Assembly: GCF_013522705.1 (NCBI RefSeq) | Contig: NZ_JAAMRE010000006.1 | Location: 124,001-188,000 of the forward strand | DNA length: 64,000 bases | DNA from: Pseudomonas lurida | Lineage (GTDB): Bacteria; Pseudomonadota; Gammaproteobacteria; Pseudomonadales; Pseudomonadaceae | Reading direction: 5' to 3' | Shown here: positions 4,321 to 22,330 of the stretch, piece after piece | Position numbering within the stretch: the first letter of the stretch is position 1 | Layout of the letters: every line of letters begins with the position of its first letter | Program-made: the position numbers and the translations under genes | The notes under the pieces: generated by a model | The model's input: the letters and a program-made list of their open reading frames with translations, nothing else | The model's database searches: none | Told to the model about the DNA's origin: nothing

Positions 4321-4869
4321 TTACTGGTAGTCGACGGTGAACGCAGCCTTGGCGTTGGCCGGGCCGGAGGTCGCCGTGCCGGTGGCGATGTAGTTGGCTG
4401 TAAAGCGCAGCGGTTGGGTCAGGTCCAGGTACGGAGCGGAGCCCAGCCCCAGTTGCACGTCGTTGCCGTCTTTATCTTTGATCTGTACAGCGACATTGCT
4501 GGCGTGTCCGGCGTCCGGGGTGATGCCAATCCATTGGCCGCTGGCGCTGGCGGTGCCGCTCAGGGACAAGAACTTGACCACCGCTTTCTTGCCAGTGACG
4601 CTGCAGCCTGGGGCGGTAGTGTCGATGGTCAGGGTGAACGCGCCACCACCAGCCACGGCACCGGCAGTTGCCAGGGAGCTGGCAGGGACGCTGCCCAGAG
4701 ACACGTCGCCGGCGCCGGCCGAACCGTTCAGGTCGCTGACCACTACCGGGCACGTGTTGTCGGTCACACTGCCGACGAAGTTGATTTCGCCGTCAGCGGC
4801 CATGGCAGCCTGAGAACCAGCAGCCAGAACCAGAGCAGCGACCAAACCTTTGAGAGCAAACTTGTTCAT
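4321..4869 (-). CDS. Major fimbrial subunit (type 1 pilin family), CUP operon 2
   Basis: This is a secreted pilin of about 182 aa. The signal peptide (MNKFALKG... AMA-ADGE) is followed by a pilin domain beginning GEINFVGSVTDNTCPV. Two cysteines (NTCPV and APGCSVTG) would form the conserved disulfide of type 1 pilins, and the protein ends on an aromatic beta-zipper (AAFTVDYQ). Start chosen at the ATG of MNKF; an in-frame ATG two codons upstream (4875) is possible, with GGAA as the only visible Shine-Dalgarno. It is the first gene of operon 2, expressed from the region 4870-5060, which carries a response-regulator-type dyad. Confidence 0.92.
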   Translation of the reverse strand: MNKFALKGLVAALVLAAGSQAAMAADGEINFVGSVTDNTCPVVVSDLNGSAGAGDVSLGSVPASSLATAGAVAGGGAFTLTIDTTAPGCSVTGKKAVVKFLSLSGTASASGQWIGITPDAGHASNVAVQIKDKDGNDVQLGLGSAPYLDLTQPLRFTANYIATGTATSGPANAKAAFTVDYQ

Positions 4870-5000
4870 TTTCATATTCCAGATAAGAGAGATGTGGGGA
4901 AGCGTGAGTGCTTCGATTCGTCGTGATCGCATTGCCGCCCGGGCGGTGTATTGTGCGTCTCAACGGGGCTCATTATCTGGAGGGGGGTACCCTTTCCACG

Positions 5001-5036
5001 TAGGACTAATGCCGCACGCCTGTAGGAATTTTCCTA
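5001..5036. promoter_or_regulatory. Dyad TAGGAATTTTCCTA plus a half-site 22 bp away, upstream of CUP operon 2
   Basis: Bases 5023-5036 form a perfect inverted repeat of the heptad TTTCCTA/ATTCCTA. A second TAGG-type half-site starts at 5001, exactly 22 bp closer to the pilin gene. The same arrangement occurs before CUP operon 1. BvgA-type regulators bind inverted heptads of this kind and stack at 22-bp intervals; the sequence also resembles the enterobacterial RcsB box. The binding protein is inferred to be one or both of the NarL-family regulators in this cluster. Confidence 0.6.
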
Positions 5037-5060
5037 GCGCTATTTAAAGGGCAACACGCT

Positions 5061-5687
5061 TCAGACCAGCTCATTGCGCCGCGCGAAGGCGGCCAGGCAC
5101 ACCACCGACTTGACCTTCAGCTTCACGATCAAACGGGTTTTGTAGTTGCTCACGGTCTTGATGCTCAGCAGCATGGACGCGGCGATTTCCGGGTTGCTCA
5201 AGCCCATTGCCAACTGCTGCAGGATGGCCAGTTCTCGATCGGTGAGGCTATGGATCAGCTTCAGGTCCTGGCTCTGCACTTCGCTGCGCGCCACCGAATG
5301 CATGCCCAGGTTGGGAAAGAAGGTGTAGCCGTCCATCGCTGCCCGCACTGCCTTGACCAGGTAGTTGAGGTCGTCGGCCTTGGAGATAAACCCGGCGGCG
5401 CCGGCGCGCATGCTGCGCATGGAATAGAACAGCGCCGACTGCGAGGTCAGCACCAGAAATTTGCATGACAGGCCCAGGGCGCGCACGCGGGCGATCACTT
5501 CCAGGCCGTCGAGACGTGCCAGGGTAATGTCCAGCACCATCAGGTCGGGCCGATGCTCGCGCGCCAGTTGCACCGCGTCGGCGCCGTTGTCGGCCTCGGC
5601 GACCACGTTGAACTGCTGCTGTTGCAGCACCATCCGCACCGACGCGCGAATGCACGGATGATCGTCCGCCACTATTGCTTTGAGCAT
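5061..5687 (-). CDS. NarL/BvgA/RocA-type response regulator, fifth gene of CUP operon 1
   Basis: This is a DNA-binding response regulator of 208 aa. The N-terminal receiver has the acidic pair in VADDHP, phospho-acceptor Asp53 (VLDITLARLDG) and a switch Lys (ISKADD). The C-terminal LuxR-type helix-turn-helix contains LTDRELAILQQLAMGLSNPEIA and TVSNYKTRL. ATG at 5687 is preferred, with a GAGGGG Shine-Dalgarno. The closest relatives I recognise are BvgA, EvgA and RocA1. It is a paralogue of the regulator at 14661-15287. It lies 36 bp after the operon 1 adhesin gene and about 190 bp upstream of the operon 2 pilin, so it is probably co-transcribed with fimbria 1 and well placed to act on fimbria 2. 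Confidence 0.92.
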   Translation of the reverse strand: MLKAIVADDHPCIRASVRMVLQQQQFNVVAEADNGADAVQLAREHRPDLMVLDITLARLDGLEVIARVRALGLSCKFLVLTSQSALFYSMRSMRAGAAGFISKADDLNYLVKAVRAAMDGYTFFPNLGMHSVARSEVQSQDLKLIHSLTDRELAILQQLAMGLSNPEIAASMLLSIKTVSNYKTRLIVKLKVKSVVCLAAFARRNELV

Positions 5688-5723
5688 AAGCCCCTCTCTG
5701 AATCGCCGCCCCGGCAACGGGGC

Positions 5724-6731
5724 TCAGTAGTAAACGATCTGCACCACCATCACCGCGTCGAACGGCCCGACTTTGGGGTCACCCAAGGGCACCAGGGTCG
5801 CGTTGAACGGCACGTCGATATGGCTGACGTCCGCCGCGAAGTTGGCCAGGGGAAACGGTTCGTTGATCGGCACCTGGTTGTTGCGCGCATCGCGGATCTC
5901 GATGCCGAACTGGCTGTCGCTGGCTGGCAGGATGTAGTCGCCTTGCACGCTGTTGCTCAGGAACGTCGCACCGATGTTGAGCGCGCTGCTGCATTTCTTT
6001 TCCAGTGCCAGGCTCAAAGGTTTGGTCGGACGCGGCGGCGAGAAGCCTGTGGACGACTTGCCGACCGCGCCGAAGTCGACGATGCCCGGTTCCGGCGTAA
6101 CTTTAACGTCCACCGTGCAGGCCGTGCCGACGATGTTCTGCAAGCCACTGAGCTGGAACCGAAAGTTGCCGAACGGGTTACTCGGCCCACCGTTAAGGCC
6201 GTATAAACCGTCGAACTGGAATACGTCGTAGGTGTCCTGGGATGGCCGTTGCAACGGCAGCAAGCCGCGCTTGCGGATGACCACCTGGAACGCAATGGTC
6301 GGGTTAACCAGGGAACACGCCAGCATGTCTTCGGCGCTGTGTGCATCCGGGCAACCAGGGGAAACAAACCCGCTGTCCACACCTTGTGTGGGGTTGGCAC
6401 TCCAGTCACCGTCCCAGGCCGTCACCTGCCTGTACACCAGGCCGAACTCGATGCCCCATGGCGTAGCGTCGAGGCCTGCGGGGTTACCGTAAAAATAGAT
6501 CGGGTCGTTTTCAGCGTAGTGAATATCGAATTTCTTCCAGCACTTGGCAGAAATCACATGGGTCTTGGAGCGCCAGATGATGGTGCCATCGGGCACCGTG
6601 TCCGGCACCGAAACCGGGCCGATATAATCCGTCAGGTAGCTGCCATCGCTCAGCGACGTGCACTGCATTCCCCAACTGACCTGGGCGCACAACAGCAGCA
6701 ATGCGGCCAGGCACAGTTTGCCAAGCGTCAT
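5724..6731 (-). CDS. Fimbrial tip adhesin, CUP operon 1
   Basis: This is a secreted two-domain protein of 335 aa. A signal peptide (MTLGKLCLAALLLLCAQVSWG) is followed by a Cys-containing N-terminal region (to about residue 195) with many aromatic residues. A C-terminal pilin-like domain starts near CTVDVKVTPEPGIVDFG, with a second Cys in KKCSSALNIG, and ends in the aromatic strand VVQIVYY. This is the layout of FimH-like adhesins: ligand-binding domain first, pilin domain last. Its ATG overlaps the chaperone stop (ATGA). The adhesin role rests on position and architecture; the N-terminal domain is not one I can match, so the receptor is unknown. Confidence 0.78.
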   Translation of the reverse strand: MTLGKLCLAALLLLCAQVSWGMQCTSLSDGSYLTDYIGPVSVPDTVPDGTIIWRSKTHVISAKCWKKFDIHYAENDPIYFYGNPAGLDATPWGIEFGLVYRQVTAWDGDWSANPTQGVDSGFVSPGCPDAHSAEDMLACSLVNPTIAFQVVIRKRGLLPLQRPSQDTYDVFQFDGLYGLNGGPSNPFGNFRFQLSGLQNIVGTACTVDVKVTPEPGIVDFGAVGKSSTGFSPPRPTKPLSLALEKKCSSALNIGATFLSNSVQGDYILPASDSQFGIEIRDARNNQVPINEPFPLANFAADVSHIDVPFNATLVPLGDPKVGPFDAVMVVQIVYY

Positions 6732-7474
6732 GGTTTGACCCCGGTGCAGGTTTCTCCGGCGCATTTGAACAACGTGTCTGACTGCCCGCCGAAGTCATTC
6801 ATGTTGGAGATGCGCAGCGTCTTGAAGCTCGTATTCGCCAAGGCAAAGCGTGCACCGGAAAACGGCGCGATCATGGTCGCAGGCAGCGGCACCGAGGTTT
6901 TTTCCTCTCCCGTCAACAGACCGACCACGGTGATATGGAACGGCGAAGGGTTGTCCAGCAGCAGTTGCTTGCCGGCGCTGTCGATCTTCACGTTCAAACG
7001 CAAGGCCAGATCTTCGCCACGCTCGCGCTTGACCACCGCCGGGCGGTAAAACAGCTTGATCTTGGACTGTAAGGCGATCTGCATCGCGTTCACCACCTCG
7101 GTCTTCGGCGGAATCTCGCGCACATTGAGGTAGAACACCGATTCGCGATCCTTCGGCAACCCCAGCTCCGGCAGCTTGACGATGCGCAGGATGCTGCTCT
7201 CGTTGGCCTCCATCCGCTGCAACGGTGGCAGCACCATGAACGGCGCGGTGACCTTCTGCCCCGCTTCGTTCTCGATCCAGGATTGCACCACGAACGGCAG
7301 TTGCGGGTTCTTGTTGCTCAGGGTCACGCTCACCGAGGGAGCGCTTTCCTCAAACACCAGGCGGGTACGGTCGGGGACCACGGCGGCATTGGCCAGTAAA
7401 GGCGCGCTGGCGAGCATGGCCAGGACCAGGCGGGTAAACAGGCGGTGTGCGTTTACAAAGGAAGTAGGGTGCAT
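6728..7474 (-). CDS. Periplasmic fimbrial chaperone (PapD/FimC family), CUP operon 1
   Basis: This is a PapD-like subunit chaperone of 248 aa. The signal peptide ends at about ANA-AVVP; the fold shows as TRLVFEESAPSVSVTLSNKN, QSWIENE, DRESVFYLNVREIPP and KIKLFYRP, the standard family landmarks. A C-terminal Cys pair (KCAGETC) is an extra not seen in the operon 2 copy. GGAG lies 7 nt before the ATG. It sits between the usher and the adhesin, so the order in this operon is pilin-usher-chaperone-adhesin, which is less common than chaperone before usher. Confidence 0.93.
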   Translation of the reverse strand: MHPTSFVNAHRLFTRLVLAMLASAPLLANAAVVPDRTRLVFEESAPSVSVTLSNKNPQLPFVVQSWIENEAGQKVTAPFMVLPPLQRMEANESSILRIVKLPELGLPKDRESVFYLNVREIPPKTEVVNAMQIALQSKIKLFYRPAVVKRERGEDLALRLNVKIDSAGKQLLLDNPSPFHITVVGLLTGEEKTSVPLPATMIAPFSGARFALANTSFKTLRISNMNDFGGQSDTLFKCAGETCTGVKP

Positions 7475-7520
7475 GGTGTTTCTCCAAAAAGTTCAGGTTC
7501 GCGCCGCTATGGCGCGCGAT

Positions 7521-9971
7521 TCAAAGGCATTGCACAGGCTTGGGAATATCGGTGAGGGCTTGGTCCGTGGGCAGCTTGCCCACTGCACAGTGCTCGGTGT
7601 CGTTCCAGCGCACGACCAGGCGGATGTCGGCGCTGATCCCCAGCAGATAGGTCACACCGCCCTCCCCTACGATGCCCAGCTCACGGTTGTTCTGCGCGTC
7701 CTGCACCGAGGCGCCGAAGGGCACCGGGCGGCCGTCGGAGCGGGTCAGCACGATGTAGGCGTTAAGGCCCTGGCGCGCGGCGAAGTCGACGTAGCCGATC
7801 GCACCCTCGGTCAACGCCAGCCGCTGCACAGGGTTGGAAACCTCGGTGTTGAGCGGCAGTTTTTCCATGTTGATGCGCGCGTCGTAGCCCTGGAACGACG
7901 GCACACCATCCAGTACGGCATAACCGTTTTTGTTCGAATGGACCTGACCGGTCAGCGCCACGTCCGGCACACCATTGGTGGACACCAGCAGCCGCGTGTC
8001 ACCGTTGATGCCGTTACCGTGGGCCGATACGCCATAGCGGGTGGCGATCAACGAACTGTCGATTTCACCGGTGACCGAGCTGTAGGTGCTGCCGTCGGTG
8101 GACACCGACGCGTTGGCGCGGTACGTCGACGTACGCTTGCCCACATAGGCGTTGACGTAGCGGTTATCGCTCACGCCGCCGTACACCTGATAGTTCAGGC
8201 CATCACCATCGTCGTGGCTGTAGCCGACACTGCTCGACGCCCCGCCGCTGCTGGAGCGCTGCATGCTGCTGGAGATGGTCGAATTGCCGCCCAGGGGCAC
8301 GGTCACGCCCAGGTAGATCTGCGAGTCGTAGCGCCGACTGCTCTGGGATTGGTACGCCGACAGGTTGACGTTGACGTTCCTGACGTTACCCACCGAGAAA
8401 CTGCGCGCCAGCGTCAGCCCGAAGCGTTCGGTCGGCGAGGCGTTCCAGTAGGTGGAGTGGTCGTAGGAAAGGGTGGTCGACAGCCCCGAGAATCGCTTGG
8501 AGAGCATCACCGAATAGCGCTGTTTGCTGGCATTGGACGCATAGGCGTCCGGGTCGCCCACAAACTGCGAAAAGTTGGTAAAGGTACGGTCGGAAAACCG
8601 GTAGCCCAGAAAGCGCAGGTCGGTACCCAGGCTGTCGAAGTGCTTGGAATAGTTGATGCGGTACGAGTTGCCCACCACTTTTTCGCCACTCCAGCGCAGC
8701 TTGGCACGCGAGGTGGTGACATCGGCGGACAGCGCACCCAACGCACCGAGGTCCTTGCCCACGCCGACTGCGTTCGACAGGTAGTCGGTAGCCGCCAACA
8801 CGCCGCCATAGACCGTCCAATCCAAAGGCAAGCCATAGGCCACTTCCGAGGCGACGAAACCAGGCTCGATACTGCCGCTGCCGTTTTGGCGGGGCTCACC
8901 GGCGCTCACCTTGTAGCGCAACTCGCCGGCACGGGCCAGGAACGGCACGGCGGCCGTGCTGACGCTGAAGGTTTGCTCGGTGCCGTCTTCCTCGCGCACG
9001 GTCACGTCCAGTGTGCCCTGGGCGCTGCTGCCCAGGTCCTGAATCGTGAAGGCGCCAGGAGTGACCGTGGTCGAATACAGCACACGACCCTGTTGCGACA
9101 CCGTGACCCGCGCATTGGTGCGCGCCACCCCATTGATCAACGGCGCATAGCCACGCAGACTCGGCGGCAGCATGCGGTCGTCACTGCTCAGGCTGACGCC
9201 GCGCAGGGCAAAGGTGTCGAACACGTCGGAGTTCAGGTAATCCTCGCCCACCGACAATTTCGAGCGAATCGACGGCAGCGCGCGGTAGGCATACAGGCGG
9301 TTGAGCTGGAACGCCTTCTCTCGCTCGCCACGGTCCTGGGTTGTCGACTCTTGCTGGGCCTGGTAGTCGGCGCGCAGGCGCCAGGCGTCGATATTCACCC
9401 CGGCGGTACCGTAGCTTTGCAACGAGCGCGAACTTCCCGAGCCGCCCGCACCCCAGGTCTGCCGGTTGTTGGCGATCACGCGGTAATCGAGCATCGCCCC
9501 ATCGAGGCCATCGCTCCAGGCGGCAGGCGGGATGTAAGTGGGATCGTCATACTCGAATGCAGCCTGAGGCAGGCTGATCGCCAGGCGCGCGAGGTTTTTC
9601 TGGTATTTGACGCTGGCCCCTTCGATGCCGCTGAGGTCGACACACTGGCCGTCGGCCAGGCGCGGTAGACCTTTGAACACAGCCGGCTTGAGGCCAAACG
9701 TGGCCACCCATGCTTCGGGCAGGCAGGCATAACTTTCCTGCCCGCTGGCATCGGCTTTGAATTCAACGGAACGGGTGCCGAAATAACGCTGGTTGACACT
9801 GGTGTCCAACAAGTAAGTGCCAGGCACTGTGTATTGCGCACGCGTGAACTGACCGAGGCTGATATCGTCATTATTGTCGATATTCAGAAACTCGTTATTG
9901 AACTCCACGGCATAGGAATACTGCGCAGCGGAAGTTAATAAATAGATCACGATAAGTTTGCGGCAGTACAC
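7521..9971 (-). CDS. Outer membrane fimbrial usher (PapC/FimD family), CUP operon 1
   Basis: This is a pilus assembly platform of 816 aa. It has a short signal peptide (to about YSYA), an N-terminal domain starting VEFNNEFLNID, a Cys pair (YACLPEAW...GQCVDL) typical of ushers, the barrel with SVGEDYLNSDVFDTFALRG and PSLRGYAPLINGVA motifs, and the C-terminal domain with the conserved late Cys pair (EHCAVG...VQCL). The start is a GTG at 9971. The usher is clearly diverged from the operon 2 usher, so the two operons are not a recent duplication. Confidence 0.93.
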   Translation of the reverse strand: MYCRKLIVIYLLTSAAQYSYAVEFNNEFLNIDNNDDISLGQFTRAQYTVPGTYLLDTSVNQRYFGTRSVEFKADASGQESYACLPEAWVATFGLKPAVFKGLPRLADGQCVDLSGIEGASVKYQKNLARLAISLPQAAFEYDDPTYIPPAAWSDGLDGAMLDYRVIANNRQTWGAGGSGSSRSLQSYGTAGVNIDAWRLRADYQAQQESTTQDRGEREKAFQLNRLYAYRALPSIRSKLSVGEDYLNSDVFDTFALRGVSLSSDDRMLPPSLRGYAPLINGVARTNARVTVSQQGRVLYSTTVTPGAFTIQDLGSSAQGTLDVTVREEDGTEQTFSVSTAAVPFLARAGELRYKVSAGEPRQNGSGSIEPGFVASEVAYGLPLDWTVYGGVLAATDYLSNAVGVGKDLGALGALSADVTTSRAKLRWSGEKVVGNSYRINYSKHFDSLGTDLRFLGYRFSDRTFTNFSQFVGDPDAYASNASKQRYSVMLSKRFSGLSTTLSYDHSTYWNASPTERFGLTLARSFSVGNVRNVNVNLSAYQSQSSRRYDSQIYLGVTVPLGGNSTISSSMQRSSSGGASSSVGYSHDDGDGLNYQVYGGVSDNRYVNAYVGKRTSTYRANASVSTDGSTYSSVTGEIDSSLIATRYGVSAHGNGINGDTRLLVSTNGVPDVALTGQVHSNKNGYAVLDGVPSFQGYDARINMEKLPLNTEVSNPVQRLALTEGAIGYVDFAARQGLNAYIVLTRSDGRPVPFGASVQDAQNNRELGIVGEGGVTYLLGISADIRLVVRWNDTEHCAVGKLPTDQALTDIPKPVQCL

Positions 9972-10006
9972 GGAAAGTACCCTATCAATTTGTTTTGGCA
10001 GGCAAG

Positions 10007-10030
10007 AAAAAAGGGGCTTTCACCCCTTTT
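10007..10030 (-). terminator. Intrinsic terminator/attenuator between pilin and usher genes
   Basis: Read on the minus strand, a 6-8 bp stem (AAGGGG/CCCCTT, 6-nt loop) is followed directly by a run of six T. It lies 25 bp after the pilin stop and 36 bp before the usher start. A leaky terminator here would give excess pilin over usher, chaperone, adhesin and the regulator encoded downstream. Confidence 0.75.
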
Positions 10031-10055
10031 ATCCAGAGCTGCTTAAACCGTTGAA

Positions 10056-10589
10056 TCAGTTGTAAGCAACGGTGAAGTTGGCGACGCTGTCTGCTTCACC
10101 GGTGGTTACGGAAGCGGCGGTGGCTTCGTACATGGCAGCGAAACTCACTGTGTTGTTACCGTTCAGCAGCAAGGTCGGAGCAACCTGCTCCTTGCCGTTT
10201 TCCAGCAGTTCGCCGGCACTGCTCTGCAGGCGGATACCGACGTTCTGAGCCAAACCGGTGGTGGCGAACAGGGCCGGAACAGTTGGATCAGTGGTGCCAG
10301 TGAAGGTGAAACGGGCGTTCTTGTAAGTCGTGGTATCACAATCGGTCAGGACGATGTCGAAGCCTTTCGGCTCCGAGCGGTCGGCAATTTTCTTGAACCG
10401 GTTGGAAGGCACCTGGCCCAATGGCACGGTCTGGTCCAGGGAGTTGGCATCAATGCCGCATGCGCCGGAAACGATTTCACCGGTAAAACGTATAACACCT
10501 GGGTTGCCGGTTGGTGAAGACGCCGCGTTGGCGAAAGAAGCAAGGCTCATAACTACGGTAGCGGCGGTAACAGCGACAATCTTTTTCAT
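10056..10589 (-). CDS. Major fimbrial subunit (type 1 pilin family), CUP operon 1
   Basis: This is a secreted pilin of 177 aa. The signal peptide ends at FANA-ASSP, and the pilin domain starts VIRFTGEIVSGACGID. The second Cys of the expected disulfide is in LTDCDTTT, and the protein ends with the aromatic strand SVANFTVAYN. It is followed by an intrinsic terminator, so it is probably the most abundant product of the operon. The region upstream (10590-11012) has no gene and carries the phased dyads described separately. Confidence 0.93.
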   Translation of the reverse strand: MKKIVAVTAATVVMSLASFANAASSPTGNPGVIRFTGEIVSGACGIDANSLDQTVPLGQVPSNRFKKIADRSEPKGFDIVLTDCDTTTYKNARFTFTGTTDPTVPALFATTGLAQNVGIRLQSSAGELLENGKEQVAPTLLLNGNNTVSFAAMYEATAASVTTGEADSVANFTVAYN

Positions 10590-11012
10590 TTAATGTTTCT
10601 CAGAGAAAGTAAGTGATCGGACCAGTTGGCCTGGCTTCGCAACCTTATCGGTAGTGGCAACTTCACTTATTTTAAGCACAAGTGCTGAATCGACGACTGA
10701 AGCCGAACAACTCCATCGCGCTGGTTATCCCCATAACGCTTTAATGTTCAACCAGCTTTCGAAACAGTGATGCCGTACTGACTTAGTAAAGAGGCCTGAG
10801 CAATGTTGCTCCGAGGAGAATAATGCGCGATGGGACTTACCGCTCTCGTAGGGGTTTTCTCTTCGAGATGTAGGAATTTTCCGCAGGACAATTCAATCGC
10901 GATCAGCTCACCCAGATTGACGAAACCTTGCGCTGAAGCGAGCAAGCTTGTTTGCGCGGGGCGCGCAGCGGCCCCAAACCGGACGGCTGGGGTTTATCGC
11001 AGAGAACACCGT
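10590..11012. other. 423-bp regulatory region upstream of CUP operon 1
   Basis: No credible gene lies here. The region separates the kinase stop codon (11013) from the pilin start (10589). The only structure I see is the pair of 22-bp-phased TAGG...TTTTC dyads at 10849-10884 and an AT-richer stretch on the promoter side of them (about 10600-10830). The kinase is therefore likely to end here and operon 1 to start from its own promoter. Confidence 0.6.
10849..10884. promoter_or_regulatory. Two 22-bp-phased response-regulator dyads upstream of CUP operon 1
   Basis: TAGGAATTTTCC at 10871 is preceded, 22 bp toward the pilin gene, by TAGGGGTTTTCT at 10849. The stronger copy is distal to the gene and the weaker copy proximal, the same geometry as before operon 2. 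This matches a primary site plus secondary dimer as known for BvgA. The regulator identity is inferred. Confidence 0.6.
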
Positions 11013-14660
<3,648 letters not shown>

Positions 14661-15287
14661 CTAGATCAGGTTATTGCGCTTGGCGAAATCGGCGAGGTAC
14701 ACCACCGATTTCACGTTGAGCTTTTCGATCAGCCGAGTTTTGTAAGTGCTCACCGTTTTGGCACTCAACAGCAACCCGTCGCCGATTTCCTTATTGGTCA
14801 AGCCGATGGAAAGTTGCTGCAAAATCGTCAACTCACGGTTGGACAGGCTCTGGATTAAGTCCAGGTCGGTGGCGTCGGTGTCTTTACGCCGCACCGAGCT
14901 GTTAGGCAGGTCCGGGAAAAACGTGTAGCCGCCCATCACCGCCTTGATTGCCTTGACCAACTCATCCAGGCCGTGGGTCTTGGAGATATAGGCCGCAGCG
15001 CCGGCTTTCATGCAGCGATTGGAATAGAACAGCGGCGACTGAGACGTGAGCACTAGAATCTTGCTGGGCAGCTCCAGTGCGCAGATGCGATTGATCACTT
15101 CCAGGCCGTCGAGCTTGGGCATGGCAATGTCGAGGATGATCACATCCGGGGCGTGCTCGCGTGCCAGCTGCACGGCGTCGGCGCCATTGTCGGCTTCCCA
15201 GACCTCGCCATAACCTTCCTGCTTGAGCAGCATGCAGACCGAAGAACGAATGAAGGGGTGGTCATCCACCACTAATGCTGTGTTCAT
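14661..15287 (-). CDS. NarL/BvgA/RocA-type response regulator paired with the hybrid kinase
   Basis: This is a 208-aa regulator. The receiver has VVDDHP, phospho-acceptor Asp53 (ILDIAMPKLDG) and Lys in ISKTHG; the LuxR-type helix-turn-helix contains LSNRELTILQQLSIGLTNKEIG and TVSTYKTRL, and ends VYLADFAKRNNLI, very like the BvgA C-terminus. An AGGGG lies 5 nt before the ATG. It is transcribed immediately upstream of the kinase (stop codon adjacent to the kinase ATG). By analogy to RocS1-RocA1 and BvgAS it should accept phosphate from the kinase Hpt and activate fimbrial promoters. It is a paralogue of the regulator in CUP operon 1. Confidence 0.94.
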   Translation of the reverse strand: MNTALVVDDHPFIRSSVCMLLKQEGYGEVWEADNGADAVQLAREHAPDVIILDIAMPKLDGLEVINRICALELPSKILVLTSQSPLFYSNRCMKAGAAAYISKTHGLDELVKAIKAVMGGYTFFPDLPNSSVRRKDTDATDLDLIQSLSNRELTILQQLSIGLTNKEIGDGLLLSAKTVSTYKTRLIEKLNVKSVVYLADFAKRNNLI

Positions 15288-15404
15288 TTGAACCCCTGTA
15301 AGGCATCACTAAAACTGGCCATGGGTACGACAGGAATGCGCAAGCGTGCAGGTTGAACGCGGCAAACCTTATCGCACAGCCGACAGCCAAGTCGCCATAA
15401 GCTG

Positions 15405-15418
15405 TAGGAAGTATCGTC
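15405..15418. promoter_or_regulatory. TAGGAA half-dyad upstream of the RocA-like gene
   Basis: TAGGAAG is present but the inverted partner is poor, so this is a half-site at best. It lies 118 bp upstream of the regulator start and just after the upstream REC-EAL stop. I list it because every other dyad of the cluster occupies the same kind of position; autoregulation is an inference. Confidence 0.35.
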
Positions 15419-15433
15419 GCTTTTCTGAAGAAC

Positions 15434-16636
15434 CTAAACTTTCTTTAAAACCGGTGCCGGCAGCGTCTCCAACCATCGCAGGAAAACACCCGCATTCATC
15501 GGCAATGCCAGGTGGTAACCCTGGCCGATGCGGCAGCCCATGGCCGTCAATGTGTCCTGCATGGTCTGGCTGCTGACCCCTTCGATCACCAGTTCCATGT
15601 GCAACGCACGGGTCAAGGCCAGCGCGCCCGCCACTACGGCGCGGCTGCCGGGGTTGACCAGGTCGTGGATCACCGAACCGTCCAGTTTGAGCTGGTTGAA
15701 CGGTAGTTGACCGAGCATCTTCAACGACGAAAACCCCATGCCGAAGTCATCCACCGCCAAGGAACAGCCGAGCATGCGCAGGCACACCAGGTTTTCCTGG
15801 GTGGCGGGTTTCAGGGCCAACAGGCCGTTTTCGGCCAGTTCGAAGGTGAAGGACTCACCGGGCAGTTCATGCCACAGCAAGGTGCGCTGGATATGCTTGA
15901 CCAGTGCCGGGCCGTCGAGCTGCGAGGCGTGCAGGTTGAATGACAGCTCCAGATCGATCCCCTGCAGGCGCAGTCCCTGCAGCAGGCCCATGGCCTGGTC
16001 GAACAATTGCTTGAACATCTCGTCGATCAGGTTGTATGCCACCATCCCCGCCAGAAACACCTGGGGCAACAGCACGCCTCTGGACGGGTGTTCCCAGCGC
16101 ACCAGCACTTCGGCGCCCGCCAATTGCCCGGTGTCCATGACGCGTTTGGGTTGGTACCAACCACGAAATTCCCCCAGGGCCAGGCCCAGGCGCAGATCCG
16201 CCTCACTGGGCAGCTCCATATTGGCGAGCGAGGCACTGCTCCCAGCGTCGGCGGGTCGACGGTACTGGCTCAGCACTTTGTGTAACGAACGCAGGCTCAA
16301 CGGGCGGTCGAAGACGCCGATCAGCGCCAGGCCACCGAACGACGGCATGTGCCCCAGTGCACGGCGAATATCCGGCGGCGTATCAACCGCCAGAATCAGC
16401 GCTTCGGCCAGGCCTTGCTGACTGACTCTGTCCAGAAACTCCAGGCCCTGGCGATCGCGACCGGTGATGTCACACAGCACCACATCCACTGCGCCCTGTT
16501 GCCGTAAATGCATCAATGCCTGATCGCCATCCACGGCCAGCACCAGATCGCGCGCTCCCAGACGCTGGAGCATCTTAACCAGCGCACTGCGCTTGAAACC
16601 TGGGTTCTCAACAACCAGCACACGTGGATAAGCCAT
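15434..16636 (-). CDS. RocR-like REC-EAL protein with a degenerate receiver
   Basis: This is a 400-aa receiver-EAL protein, colinear with P. aeruginosa RocR. The EAL part keeps Glu176 (EVL), Asn234, Glu266, Asp296-Asp297, Lys317, Glu352 and Gln372. However the EGVE motif reads EGVS (Ser at the position of the second Glu), and the helix after Glu266 reads AENG rather than TETG. The receiver keeps Asp56 but has EN instead of an acidic pair at 10-11 and Arg in place of the switch Lys (FDRP). Phosphodiesterase activity is possible but may be weakened or uncoupled from phosphorylation. It is the second RocR copy in this cluster and lies between the pseudo-receiver and the RocA-like gene. Confidence 0.88.
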   Translation of the reverse strand: MAYPRVLVVENPGFKRSALVKMLQRLGARDLVLAVDGDQALMHLRQQGAVDVVLCDITGRDRQGLEFLDRVSQQGLAEALILAVDTPPDIRRALGHMPSFGGLALIGVFDRPLSLRSLHKVLSQYRRPADAGSSASLANMELPSEADLRLGLALGEFRGWYQPKRVMDTGQLAGAEVLVRWEHPSRGVLLPQVFLAGMVAYNLIDEMFKQLFDQAMGLLQGLRLQGIDLELSFNLHASQLDGPALVKHIQRTLLWHELPGESFTFELAENGLLALKPATQENLVCLRMLGCSLAVDDFGMGFSSLKMLGQLPFNQLKLDGSVIHDLVNPGSRAVVAGALALTRALHMELVIEGVSSQTMQDTLTAMGCRIGQGYHLALPMNAGVFLRWLETLPAPVLKKV

Positions 16637-16666
16637 CGGCTCAAGTCCCTTGGCAGCGAACAGTGT

Positions 16667-16990
16667 CTAGATGGCCAGCGCCGAATGGGCGCACGAAGAA
16701 TCTGTATTGGTCGTAGGCAGCGAGTTCAGATCGTAGATGTAGGCGCTGCGAATATTGCGGCTGCGCCGGATAAAGTCAGCCATGTCCACACCGGCTTCGG
16801 TCGCCAGGGAAGCATTGACGATGACCAGGTCGAAGATCCAGGCATCGGCCTGGGTCAGCACGTCAAGTTCGTGGTAAGACGCTACCGGCGCGATGCGATA
16901 CTGGCCCAGCAGGTTCAAGCGTTTTTCGATCAGCAGCCGTTGGCTGTGACGTTTGTCGGCGATCAGTATCCGCAGGCGTTGCATGGTCAT
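16667..16990 (-). CDS. Stand-alone pseudo-receiver domain
   Basis: This is a 107-aa protein with a receiver-like start (LRILIADKRHSQRLLIEKRLNLLG) and spacing, but the phospho-acceptor position is Asn59 (LVIVNASL) instead of Asp, and no clear switch Lys follows. ATG at 16990 is preferred (GGGAA 9 nt upstream); 16984 is possible. It lies between the two REC-EAL genes. It could compete with true receivers for the kinase Hpt or bind the RocR-like proteins without being phosphorylated. I cannot match it to a named protein; the receiver assignment rests on the first half of the sequence. Confidence 0.65.
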   Translation of the reverse strand: MTMQRLRILIADKRHSQRLLIEKRLNLLGQYRIAPVASYHELDVLTQADAWIFDLVIVNASLATEAGVDMADFIRRSRNIRSAYIYDLNSLPTTNTDSSCAHSALAI

Positions 16991-17097
16991 GGCAGTCGGT
17001 TCCCGCACAATGAATGGAGTGGTCGTTTGCTTACAAGCGATAGGCCATCCTAGGCAGGGACCGGCTCAAACAGAGAAGGAAAACGCCCGCAACCGTG

Positions 17098-17111
17098 TAG
17101 GGCTTTTCCTA
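17098..17111. promoter_or_regulatory. Dyad TAGGGCTTTTCCTA upstream of the pseudo-receiver gene
   Basis: This inverted repeat of the TTTCCTA heptad overlaps the stop codon of the upstream REC-EAL gene and lies about 110 bp before the pseudo-receiver start. It is the same motif as before the fimbrial operons. Function is inferred from recurrence within the cluster. Confidence 0.5.
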
Positions 17112-18311
17112 CAGATTGTTGGATGGCGATGGTTGCCGTTGCAGCCATTGCAGAAAATTCGCTTCATTCATTGGCCGCGCGTACAGATAGCCCTGACCCA
17201 CTTCACCACCCAGGGCCAACAATTGCGCGCGTTGCGTCGGGGTTTCGATGCCTTCGATCACCACGTTCATGCCCAAAGCGTGACCGAGGGCCAGGGTGCC
17301 ACAGATCACCGCTCGGCAACGTGGCTCGTCGTCCAGCGTGCGGATGAACTCACCATCAAGCTTGATCTCGTTGAAGGGCAACTGGCACAGGCGCTGCAAC
17401 GAGGAAAAACCGGCGCCGAAATCATCGATGGACAAGCGGCAGCCCATCATGCGCAAGCGCACCAGGTTTTCCAGGTTGGGCACGGCAGCCTCCAGCAGCC
17501 CGACTTCCGTCAGCTCAAAGGTCAGGCACGAAGCGGGTATGGCATGCAGACGCAGGATGCCCTTGATGGTCGCCACTAACGCAGGGTTGGCCAACTGCGA
17601 CGCGTGCAAGTTGAAGGCGGTGTTTACCTGGAGGTCAAGTTCGCGCAGTCGACGTTGAAAGCTCAGCACCTGATCGAGTTGCGCGAACAGCAGCGTATCT
17701 ATCAATTCCAGGCGTTCCAGCACCGGCATGAAGGACGCCGGCGTCACTACCCCCAATGTCGGGTGCTGCCAACGGCACAATATCTCCGCCCCGCAAACCT
17801 CGCCGGTCAGCAGATTGAATTTGGGTTGATACCACGGCTGGAACTGCTGCTCGGCGATGGCGGTGCACACCTGCTCCTCGGTGGCCAGCCACACTTCTGG
17901 TCGCGCCTGTTTACTCACCGATGAATTCAAGTATCTGTTGATCAACTGCCGCAGCACATCACACGGCAACGGTTTGCCTACATCGCCGAGCAAATCCAGC
18001 CCTAGGATTTTGATGATCTGATGGATCGACCGACGCAGATCGGCGGGCAGCGAGCTGCTGATAATGATCGACTTGACCTGCCCTGACACACCTACCCGCT
18101 TCAAGAACTCCAACCCGTCCATGCCCTCCATTTGCAGGTCGCACAGAGCAATATCCACCCGTCCGACGGCATCCAGCACCGTTAACGCCTCGTAGCCATC
18201 GCTGGCTTCGAACACCTCATCACAGCCGAGGGAACGCAAGAGGTTTACAGCGACGGAGCGCTGAAAAACATGATCTTCGAGGACCAGAACGCGAAGCGGT
18301 AAACGGGACAT
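17109..18311 (-). CDS. RocR-type response regulator with c-di-GMP phosphodiesterase (EAL) domain
   Basis: This is a 400-aa REC-EAL protein with all expected residues. The receiver has an LEDH acidic pair, Asp58 (LCDLQMEGMDG) and Lys113 (VGKP). The EAL domain has Glu176 (EIL), Asn234, Glu266, Asp296-Asp297, Lys317, Glu353/Glu356 (EGIE) and a GQGY loop. It should hydrolyse c-di-GMP to pGpG and compete with RocA-like regulators for phosphate from the kinase, as known for RocR in P. aeruginosa, where it opposes fimbrial gene activation. Start chosen at ATG 18311, which gives the RocR N-terminus; the frame stays open to a TTG at 18425. It is the first gene of the minus-strand signalling block. Confidence 0.93.
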   Translation of the reverse strand: MSRLPLRVLVLEDHVFQRSVAVNLLRSLGCDEVFEASDGYEALTVLDAVGRVDIALCDLQMEGMDGLEFLKRVGVSGQVKSIIISSSLPADLRRSIHQIIKILGLDLLGDVGKPLPCDVLRQLINRYLNSSVSKQARPEVWLATEEQVCTAIAEQQFQPWYQPKFNLLTGEVCGAEILCRWQHPTLGVVTPASFMPVLERLELIDTLLFAQLDQVLSFQRRLRELDLQVNTAFNLHASQLANPALVATIKGILRLHAIPASCLTFELTEVGLLEAAVPNLENLVRLRMMGCRLSIDDFGAGFSSLQRLCQLPFNEIKLDGEFIRTLDDEPRCRAVICGTLALGHALGMNVVIEGIETPTQRAQLLALGGEVGQGYLYARPMNEANFLQWLQRQPSPSNNL

Positions 18312-18391
18312 GGGCGGCGGCTCTTGGGTTGGACGGTGCAAGTCTGCGTGCGATCGGGCTCTATTTGCGCATGAAAAAGCCTTTCTGCGTG

Positions 18392-18405
18392 TAGGAAAAT
18401 TCCCA
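18392..18405. promoter_or_regulatory. Dyad TAGGAAAATTCCCA upstream of the first REC-EAL gene
   Basis: This 14-bp near-perfect inverted repeat is centred about 87 bp before the RocR-like start codon and is the outermost copy of the cluster motif. It marks the probable upstream border of the regulon. Confidence 0.5.
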
Positions 18406-20335: not shown

Positions 20336-21727
20336 GTGCGCGTTTTAACTTCTGTATTGCTTGCCGGTGGCATCGCCAGCCTGTCCGGTTGTGTCACCCA
20401 GTCCGGCAAGGTCGAGCAGATGCTCGCCGACACGCTGGCCCAACCGCTGGTGGAAAACAGCATCGTGCGCGAAGGCGACCTGCTCAGTTTCGAGCTGCTG
20501 ATGCCCGACTCCACCGGCGGCGTGCGGCGCACCATGCAGTTCGAGGCGGCGTGCTCGACCAGGCAATTGCACCTGCTGTACCTAGATGGCTCCCAGCGCG
20601 TGTACCCGCTCAAGGCCGGGCGCTATACCGAGGCGCGCAAACTGTCTGACACGCTGTACACCGCGTTGGCCGCCAACCAGACATTCGTGCGTGCCTGTGC
20701 CGAAACGCCAGCACCGGACTGGCGCCTGGTCCAGACCGATGCGCGCGATAACTGGGTGCTGCTCGACGCCGCCAGCCTCAAGACCGTGCAGGGTGAAACC
20801 CGTTTCTGGGCCGCCTTCGATAACCCGACGGTGCTCAATGACCTGCCCTATGACGCGCCCTATGCGCAAAAACGCCAGCACTTTGCGGTGTCCTGCGCCA
20901 GCGGCACGTACAAGGAACTGGCCGGCTACGACCTGGACGTGCGCAACCGCGTGAGCGATGGCCGCGTCGACAGTTTCCCGACGCCACAACCCATCGCCGG
21001 CAGCGACGCCGACTATGTATTGCTGTTCAACACGGTGTGCGCCAACCCCGAAAAAATCGCCAAGCTGGCGCCCTTCAAGCCGCGCCTGAAAGCGCCGGCG
21101 ATCATCGCCCTGTCGTCGGTGCAGCCCCAGGTGCTGGCCGCGCTTGCGCCGTTCAACCAGGACAAGCCCGCGCGCACCTTGAAGTACGTGCACTTCACCG
21201 GCACATCGACCCTCAAAGGCAAGACGTCCAACAGCACCAGCGAGCACTTCATCAGCCAGGACAAGGCCAGTGGCCAACTGCAGATCGTCCATCGCGGCGA
21301 CGGCTATGAGTCCCAGTCGGTGAGCTGGCGCAACCTGGTCTCGCTGGTATCGAAGACAACGTACGGCGGCACCGGCATGGCCGAAAGCTCGACCTTGACG
21401 CAGTTGAGCTTGACCGGCAATTGGAAAGCCTTGCCCGTCGGCGAAACCGTGGTCTACCAGACCACCCGCTCGACACTCAACAGCCTGGTGGGCAGCTATA
21501 ACAAGGTGCAGACCAACCGCTGCGTCGTCGAACGCCAATTGCCGGCCCGCGAACTCAACCCCAACCTGCTGGGGAACGCCAAGGCCTTGTCATGCCGCAC
21601 CGATGACGATAAGTACAACCGCGTCGAACATCTGTACTACCTGAGCGATTACGCCTACTTCTACGAATCGAGCACGGACAAGAACGAGTTTTTCTACGCC
21701 GATACGCGCATCGATAAGTTCGAATAA
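20336..21727 (+). CDS. Putative lipoprotein of unknown function
   Basis: This is a secreted lipoprotein of about 463 aa. The GTG at 20336 is preferred: GAGG lies 5 nt upstream and translation gives a compact lipoprotein signal (MRVLTSVLLAGGIASLSGC) with the lipobox Cys. A longer reading from an ATG at 20261 would overlap the preceding gene and place the signal internally. The rest has no domain I recognise; it is soluble-looking with several Cys and many Tyr/Asp. No operon partner is evident, and the gene is followed by a repeat block. Confidence 0.7.
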   Translation: MRVLTSVLLAGGIASLSGCVTQSGKVEQMLADTLAQPLVENSIVREGDLLSFELLMPDSTGGVRRTMQFEAACSTRQLHLLYLDGSQRVYPLKAGRYTEARKLSDTLYTALAANQTFVRACAETPAPDWRLVQTDARDNWVLLDAASLKTVQGETRFWAAFDNPTVLNDLPYDAPYAQKRQHFAVSCASGTYKELAGYDLDVRNRVSDGRVDSFPTPQPIAGSDADYVLLFNTVCANPEKIAKLAPFKPRLKAPAIIALSSVQPQVLAALAPFNQDKPARTLKYVHFTGTSTLKGKTSNSTSEHFISQDKASGQLQIVHRGDGYESQSVSWRNLVSLVSKTTYGGTGMAESSTLTQLSLTGNWKALPVGETVVYQTTRSTLNSLVGSYNKVQTNRCVVERQLPARELNPNLLGNAKALSCRTDDDKYNRVEHLYYLSDYAYFYESSTDKNEFFYADTRIDKFE

Positions 21728-21741
21728 CAGGTAACACTTCA

Positions 21742-22330
21742 GCGTCTGGCTTTGGGGCCGCTGCGCAGCCCAGCGCAAGCAAGCTTGCTCACCACAGGGA
21801 AGCGCGGTGCGACCACTCTCTGTGGTGAGCGGTTTCTTGTGTTGAACGGGCCTTTTTAGTGAGCAGTCCTTTTGTGGTGAGCAAGCTTGCTTGCTCACCA
21901 CAGGGGAGCGCGGTGCGACCACTCTCTGTGGTGAGCGGTTTCTTGTGTTGAACGGGCCTTTTTAGTGAGCAGTCCTTTTGTGGTGAGCGGGCTTGCCCCG
22001 CGCTGGGCTGCGCAGCGGCCCCTCCCATCCACCGTGTACTTTCAGGTAAACCCCACCGCCTGGCTTTGGGGCCGCTGCGCAGCCCAGCGCAAGCAAGCTT
22101 GCTCACCACAGGGAAGCGCGGTGCGACCACTCTCTGTGGTGAGCGGTTTCTTGTGTTGAACAGGCCTTTTTAGTGAGCAGTCCTTTTGTGGTGAGCGGGC
22201 TTGCCCCGCGCTGGGCTGCGCAGCGGCCCCCTCCCATCCACCGCGTACTTTCAGGTAAACCCCAGCGCCTGGCTTTGGGGCCGCTGCGCAGCCCTGCGCA
22301 AGCAGGCTTGCTCACCACAGGGGAATTGGA
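21742..22330. repeat. Block of 208-bp tandem repeats built from long palindromic elements
   Basis: The space between two genes (21728-22391) is almost entirely repeat. A unit of about 100 bp starting gcttgctcaccacagg and ending gtggtgagc occurs at 21783, 21889 and 22097. Bases 21889-22096 and 22097-22304 form a 208-bp tandem pair. Each 208-bp unit contains an imperfect inverted repeat (about 21979-22110 and 22187-22318) whose arms start TGTGGTGAGCGGGCTTG and end in the matching CAAGC.TGCTCACCACA. Related copies occur at 28139, 43777 and 63522. The pattern is that of Pseudomonas REP/REPIN-like intergenic elements; no gene is seen here. Confidence 0.85.

Follow-up and report, generated by a model that had tools for sequence, protein, structure and literature searches.

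Phased dyads before the transcription units of a Roc-type fimbrial cluster in Pseudomonas lurida are likely operators of RocA-type response regulators

Introduction

According to passages of PMC7250471, the response regulator BvgA binds DNA as head-to-head dimers centred 22 bp apart, with a strong upstream site that reads TAAGAAATTTCCTA at Pfha. At the Pfha, Pptx and Pfim3 promoters, weaker sites follow every 22 bp towards the gene, and the last one abuts a poor -35 element (same passages of PMC7250471). Here we describe a related layout in a 64,000-nucleotide stretch of the Pseudomonas lurida genome (NCBI RefSeq assembly GCF_013522705.1, contig NZ_JAAMRE010000006.1, positions 124,001 to 188,000 of the forward strand; hereafter the window), in which a minus-strand gene cluster with two chaperone-usher pathway (CUP) operons carries inverted dyads before its transcription units. 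Judging from their sequence and arrangement, these dyads are very probably operators of the RocA-type response regulators (BvgA/EvgA family) encoded in the cluster, which would activate poor promoters in the manner of BvgA.

The gene types of the cluster are those of the P. aeruginosa Roc (regulation of cup) system, which also stand beside CUP operons and for which similar RocA motifs are reported (passages of PMC12051241 and PMC3083521). In passages of PMC12051241, RocA1, RocA2 and RocA3 bind in vitro at roc1, cupB, cupC and lepBA, and their motifs are described as highly similar (Figure S2A). The same source reports that RocA1 activates cupC and RocA3 activates cupB in vivo, and that RocR opposes cup expression (Figure 2 legend). 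Unlike the P. aeruginosa system, the present cluster brings together a pair of CUP operons, two RocA proteins and two EAL regulators, and phased sites with a hexamer register are absent from the passages of published text on Roc. The main text of the P. aeruginosa atlas of systematic evolution of ligands by exponential enrichment (PMC8041468) contains no RocA, PA3948, PA4080, PA3045, BvgA or cupC, and no title or abstract in the literature searched describes phased RocA sites. The dyad itself is not claimed as new; only the layout is, as far as the literature searches reach.

The likeness to BvgA lies in the inverted TTTCCTA-like heptads, in a second site 22 bp nearer the gene, and in a last site that abuts the -35 position. 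On the other hand, the promoters described here differ from those of BvgA in the number of dyads (one or two, not three or six), in their spacing of 21 or 22 bp, in a conserved CA after the downstream half, and in the presence of RocR-type phosphodiesterase genes under the same layout. At the protein level, binding sites aside, the nearest curated families to RocA are EvgA and FimZ, NarL-family regulators from E. coli and enterobacteria, although RocA scores below the NCBIfam cut-offs for EvgA or FimZ proper.

Layout of the dyads in the window

The first-pass annotation of the window had listed five dyad copies, at 5023, 10871, 17098 and 18392 with a half-site at 15405, and all five are present, with 0, 2, 2, 1 and 3 mismatches, respectively (Table 1). 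The TAGG copies that it had noted 22 bp nearer the two pilin genes, at 5001 and 10849, were also found. However, the second copy is not limited to the pilin promoters, since weak copies at +22 also lie at 17076-17089 and 18370-18383. Thus, at each of four promoters, all on the minus strand, a distal dyad is followed by an 8-bp gap and a proximal dyad. When the scores of the four full sites are summed, +22 comes out highest among the tested offsets (28, as compared to a mean of 11.5 with standard deviation 3.4), and it still ranks first when the 15405 half-site is added with its 3 of 12 (sum 31). An xAxxxT hexamer begins 23 bp past the second copy at all four full sites; this distance is the sum of a -35 slot (6 bp) and a spacer (17 bp). 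The sites had been placed outside or at the edge of coding sequence, which is accurate with two qualifications: 17098-17111 overlaps the stop codon (17109-17111) of EAL_a, the gene of a RocR-like receiver-EAL protein, and 18392 lies inside an open reading frame (ORF) only with a TTG start, the likely start being an ATG at 18311.

At three mismatches, the whole window holds 9 matches against 5.97 expected, a number reached by 17 of 100 shuffles, and the motif is therefore not enriched; loose counting in the window alone was rejected as evidence on this ground. At two mismatches, the cluster has 4 of the 95 sites in the genome (Poisson P 8.5e-5); this value overstates the significance, since the limits of the region were set by the very sites counted. 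It is the comparison among relatives and genomes that supports the sites strongly.

Conservation, phasing and register in relatives

The relatives comprise the best 80 of 124 matches, in 77 loci, of which the analysis used the 56 from Pseudomonas, with the remaining 21 serving as control only. In the 56 loci, genes were located by tblastn, blind to the motif, and 300 nt upstream plus 20 nt inside each gene were scanned. A dyad with at most one mismatch precedes EAL_b, the gene of the second receiver-EAL protein, in 26 of 30 cases (25 at -98 to -103, one at -295), and EAL_a in 17 of 30. The operon A pilin gene has such a dyad in 10 of 13 cases and one with at most two mismatches in 13 of 13, at -161 to -173. 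The proportions are 2/12, 5/12 and 11/12 at up to one, two and three mismatches for the operon B pilin gene, 11/35 and 17/35 at up to one and two for the small gene, 7/66 and 25/66 for rocA with its paralogues included, and 0/3 at up to one for rocA_b. Among the controls, 17,668 same-locus segments, which include real-looking sites before further adhesin genes, match at 0.6% and 1.3% (up to one and two mismatches), and 5,000 segments from other phyla at 0.2% and 0.8%.

Phasing and the hexamer were analysed in 132 sites (127 in the loci, 5 in the window) with at most three mismatches at the usual distance of their class, genes without a site at that distance having been dropped beforehand. The sites were chosen by motif match, not by the second copy or the hexamer. 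A non-redundant set with less than 60% ungapped flank identity retained 86 of the 132, or 81 excluding the window and 62 also excluding rocA. After the removal of similar rows and of the window, the second dyad scored best at +22 for EAL_b (n=20, mean 7.40 of 12, shuffle maximum 4.40) and the pilin genes (n=17, mean 6.65, shuffle maximum 4.35), and at +21 for EAL_a (n=15, mean 8.33, shuffle maximum 4.80), with 300 dinucleotide shuffles each. The earlier description of the spacing as exactly 22 bp thus applies to the window, while part of the relatives, including most EAL_a promoters, have 21 bp.

For the hexamer register, the dyad-dyad spacing was taken as the best of 20-23 bp. The xAxxxT hexamer lies 23 bp past the promoter-proximal dyad in 59 of the 62 non-redundant promoters, whereas any other offset between 17 and 30 gives a count of 0-8. 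By class, the register is found in 20/20 for EAL_b, 7/7 and 9/10 for the pilin genes of operons B and A, 10/10 for the small gene (taken as single-site) and 13/15 for EAL_a. Since the register is kept in 59 of 62, the last dyad occupies the same place relative to the promoter, with one dyad or two and at 21 or 22 bp. The abutment of the last site on the predicted -35 position, as at BvgA promoters, is likewise seen at these 59 of 62 promoters and at the four full window sites, but not at rocA or the 15405 half-site.

The primary Pfha site TAAGAAATTTCCTA is found without a single change upstream of rocA in four loci (L017, L022, L023 and L063), and a conserved CA follows the downstream dyad half. 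The comparison with BvgA made in the first-pass annotation therefore holds for the Pfha letters, the phasing, the abutment on -35 and the co-occurrence of the motif with RocA described below. The description of the regulators themselves as BvgA-like applies at the family level, the nearest curated families being EvgA and FimZ, below cut-off.

Strong sites also stand before genes for a Pertactin/AIDA/Autotransporter protein (L021 15839), a YadA-type trimeric adhesin (L053 15519) and a further Fimbrial-domain protein (L054 11862); the Pfam scan covered 3 of the 21 extra downstream ORFs of the relatives' loci. Similar strong sites were seen before adhesin genes beside Roc clusters in the loci of other relatives. 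Upstream of rocA in many loci (e.g. L017 9872), the dyad is followed by a conserved CACTnnnnnCGnGCTCGTGTATTTT-like stretch.

Distribution in the genome and the genus

The genome of the strain (5.73 Mb searched) contains the bare dyad at 95 places, as compared to 56 for the reversed control. This mild excess makes the bare dyad too unspecific as a genome-wide predictor, and it was rejected as such. The extended motif, consisting of the dyad and CA (GGAANWTTCCTACA), gives 28 places at one mismatch, as compared to 6 for the reversed control. Its frequency elsewhere does not equal that in the cluster, which has three of the six exact places in the genome; one of the six lies 94 bp from a rocA paralogue. 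The complete two-site layout occurs at 4 of the 28 places, namely three cluster sites and one on contig C14. At the latter (C14:20194-20207), the hexamer is TAGGCT, and some 85 bp further on begins a gene whose predicted product is a small secreted protein of 168 aa. This gene may be a member of the regulon outside the cluster, and its product may be NlpC/P60-like. Outside the cluster, the genome has just one further exact TAGGAANNTTCCTA, at C66:215408-215421, which lies about 350 bp upstream of a gene and lacks the complete layout.

In the genus set of 199 genomes, the extended motif is present in 114 of 168 genomes with a RocA match (E <=1e-50) and in 2 of the 31 genomes that lack one (Fisher P 7e-11, relatedness ignored; the 31 comprise 20 listed genomes and 11 taken as RocA-less from their absence in the match list). 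Each of these two carries one exact motif. Among genomes of at most 5.5 Mb, the motif is found in 23 of 32 with RocA and 2 of 30 without. Over all genomes, there are 240 extended-motif places, as compared to 8 for the reversed pattern.

Sites in the P. aeruginosa clade

One genome, G126, encodes one RocR that is 97% identical to 3sy8 and another that is 49% identical. These values fit the 49% identity between RocR and RocR3 given in passages of PMC12051241, and we therefore take G126 for P. aeruginosa or P. paraeruginosa. It has 12 distinct extended-motif places at one mismatch, three of which precede rocR, rocR3 and cupC1. The rocR promoter has the complete layout, with the second dyad at +22 and CAGTAT at 23, and at cupC1 (dyad at -161) and rocR3 the +22 copy is present as well, scoring 8 and 7 of 12. 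In the same genome, the complete layout recurs at 21 bp before a NarL-type response regulator gene (G126:C1:1440683-1440696), where a perfect copy of TAGGAAATTTCCTA is accompanied by the second dyad at +21 and the hexamer TAGAAT.

Proposed mechanism and alternative explanations

In the mechanism that we favor, a RocS-type kinase presumably phosphorylates RocA, and a RocA dimer would then bind the strong distal dyad and help another dimer to load on the weak dyad, which lies 22 bp closer to the gene. This second dimer would sit beside RNA polymerase and abut the -35 position in a poor promoter, with the hexamer 23 bp on. Because the RocR-like EAL genes share the layout of the pilin operons, RocA would increase the RocR-like enzymes as well. 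Activation of the fimbriae together with the predicted cyclic di-GMP phosphodiesterases that oppose them may thus constitute a built-in brake. What we infer in this scheme is that RocA binds the dyads, that it does so when phosphorylated, that it activates and does not repress, and which RocA paralogue acts. The comparative data support the reading of the dyads as operators of a regulon, as the first-pass annotation had proposed.

It is unlikely that the dyads serve as operators for a different dimeric regulator found together with Roc, such as a further NarL/FixJ protein, with RocA acting elsewhere. Such a regulator would fit the ten RocA-like matches in the genome of the strain (E up to 1e-12), among which RocA is the presumed binder here, and the two genomes that keep one exact motif each without a RocA match at 1e-50. 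However, the motif and RocA co-occur across the genus, the dyad letters match the BvgA Pfha site, and published RocA binding falls on dyad-bearing promoters (passages of PMC12051241).

Slightly less probable still is that RocA mainly represses, or only autoregulates, and that the hexamers serve promoters of other factors. What this alternative has in its favor is rocA itself, where a -10-like sequence is found nearer the dyad, at an offset of 31-33 counted from the start of the dyad, and where the dyad would overlap the -35 position. Against it, the proximal dyad abuts the -35 slot and does not cover it at 59 of the 62 other promoters, and cupC is activated by RocA1, and cupB by RocA3, in vivo (passages of PMC12051241). 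Finally, the window count near expectation at three mismatches, and a half-site and second copies that are unimpressive singly, could suggest chance palindromes chosen by eye, but promoters whose flanks are less than 60% identical still share the dyad, the spacing and the register, the 21- and 22-bp variants both keep the 23-bp register, and in our view conservation, phasing and the hexamer register have already refuted this explanation, whose probability is negligible. Terminators or hairpins, as another possible reading of the dyads, were provisionally discarded.

Several observations weigh against the mechanism that we favor. In the window, the 15405 half-site departs from the layout, with 3 of 12 at +22, and the mismatch scan found no site of its own for EAL_b, unlike in the relatives. 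The rocA promoters of the relatives (n=19) show no second-dyad peak above the shuffles and no 23-bp register, and the small gene has a modest unexplained peak at +25 (n=10, 5.10 as compared to a shuffle maximum of 4.70). Elsewhere in the genome, the sites beside rocA paralogues on contigs C18 and C31 lack the complete layout, and in the genus 54 of the 168 RocA genomes are without an exact extended motif. In G126, the hexamer is absent at 23 for cupC1 and rocR3, and cupB1, tried as an external check, has only weak candidates (three mismatches at -334, four at -234), while a DNA affinity purification sequencing peak is reported for cupB at 214 bp (passages of PMC12051241).

If the dyads are RocA operators, they provide a base-pair-resolved, falsifiable rule for Roc-controlled genes in Pseudomonas and a tie to the well-studied BvgA mechanism. 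The rule predicts that RocA drives its own antagonist RocR. It also makes testable, through spacing, proximal-dyad strength and the -10 register, how three RocA paralogues with highly similar motifs choose their targets, a question posed in passages of PMC12051241. The promoter rule is unusually clean. More tentatively, and with somewhat less than even confidence, we suggest that a single promoter grammar of ancient origin, common to beta- and gammaproteobacteria, serves both BvgA and RocA. It would run from a strong dyad over 21-22 bp to a weak dyad and from there over 23 bp to the -10, and it would mark whole attachment regulons of fimbriae and pertactin/AIDA-type and YadA-type adhesins, usually with a cyclic di-GMP phosphodiesterase brake. 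In that case, the attachment regulon of a BvgA-family genome would be readable from its sequence.

Gene content of the cluster

The minus-strand block consists of EAL_a, the small gene, EAL_b, rocA, the RocS-type kinase gene, CUP operon B (pilin, usher, chaperone and adhesin), a second rocA and CUP operon A (Table 1). It combines an unorthodox kinase carrying an SBP_bac_3 pair and Hpt with a NarL-type RocA and a receiver-EAL RocR beside CUP operons, the traits of Roc systems, and on its gene content we take it for one. The RocA at 14661 scores 160.2 of 251 bits with EvgA (NF007419) and 159.1 of 271 with FimZ (NF007403), and the RocA at 5061 scores 157.6 and 155.8 bits, all below the curated cut-offs. 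The BvgA model is absent among the 25 families listed for each of the two regulators. The nearest named relative of the kinase is EvgS, also below the curated cut-off, and the nearest solved structures are EvgA for RocA and RocR for EAL_a. Directly upstream of the second rocA, the mismatch scan of the window found no site. Relatives carry better dyads than the 15405 half-site at the same distance before rocA.

Table 1. Sites and genes of the cluster, in window positions
Feature	Position	Strand	Remark
Distal strong dyad, CUP operon A	5023..5036	-	TAGGAAAATTCCTA, 0 mismatches of 12
Proximal weak dyad, operon A, +22	5001..5014	-	CGGCATTAGTCCTA, 7 of 12
-10-like hexamer GATAAT (predicted), operon A	4972..4977	-	23 bp after proximal dyad
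Distal dyad, CUP operon B	10871..10884	-	GCGGAAAATTCCTA, 2 mismatches
Proximal weak dyad, operon B, +22	10849..10862	-	AGAGAAAACCCCTA, 7 of 12
-10-like hexamer CATTAT (predicted), operon B	10820..10825	-	
Distal dyad before small gene and EAL_b	17098..17111	-	TAGGAAAAGCCCTA, 2 mismatches
Proximal dyad, small gene, +22	17076..17089	-	CGGGCGTTTTCCTT, 7 of 12
-10-like hexamer TAGGAT (predicted), small gene	17047..17052	-	
Distal dyad before EAL_a	18392..18405	-	TGGGAATTTTCCTA, 1 mismatch
Proximal dyad, EAL_a, +22	18370..18383	-	AAGGCTTTTTCATG, 7 of 12
-10-like hexamer CAGACT (predicted, weak), EAL_a	18341..18346	-	
Half-site before rocA	15405..15418	-	GACGATACTTCCTA, 3 mismatches
Operon A pilin gene	4321..4869	-	
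Second RocA-type response regulator	5061..5681	-	
Operon B pilin gene	10056..10589	-	
RocS-type kinase	11013..14660	-	two SBP_bac_3, PAS, HisKA, HATPase, receiver, Hpt
RocA-type response regulator	14661..15287	-	likely acts on the sites (predicted)
EAL_b, second receiver-EAL protein	15434..16636	-	
Small gene	16667..16990	-	no Pfam or NCBIfam match
EAL_a, RocR-like receiver-EAL protein	17109..18311	-	

The small gene product (16667-16990) is conserved beside Roc clusters (35 upstream rows), and in relatives its gene has a single-site promoter of its own. Outside the cluster, overlapping ORF translations at 21590-22130 of the window repeat the same peptide stretches, suggesting direct DNA repeats.

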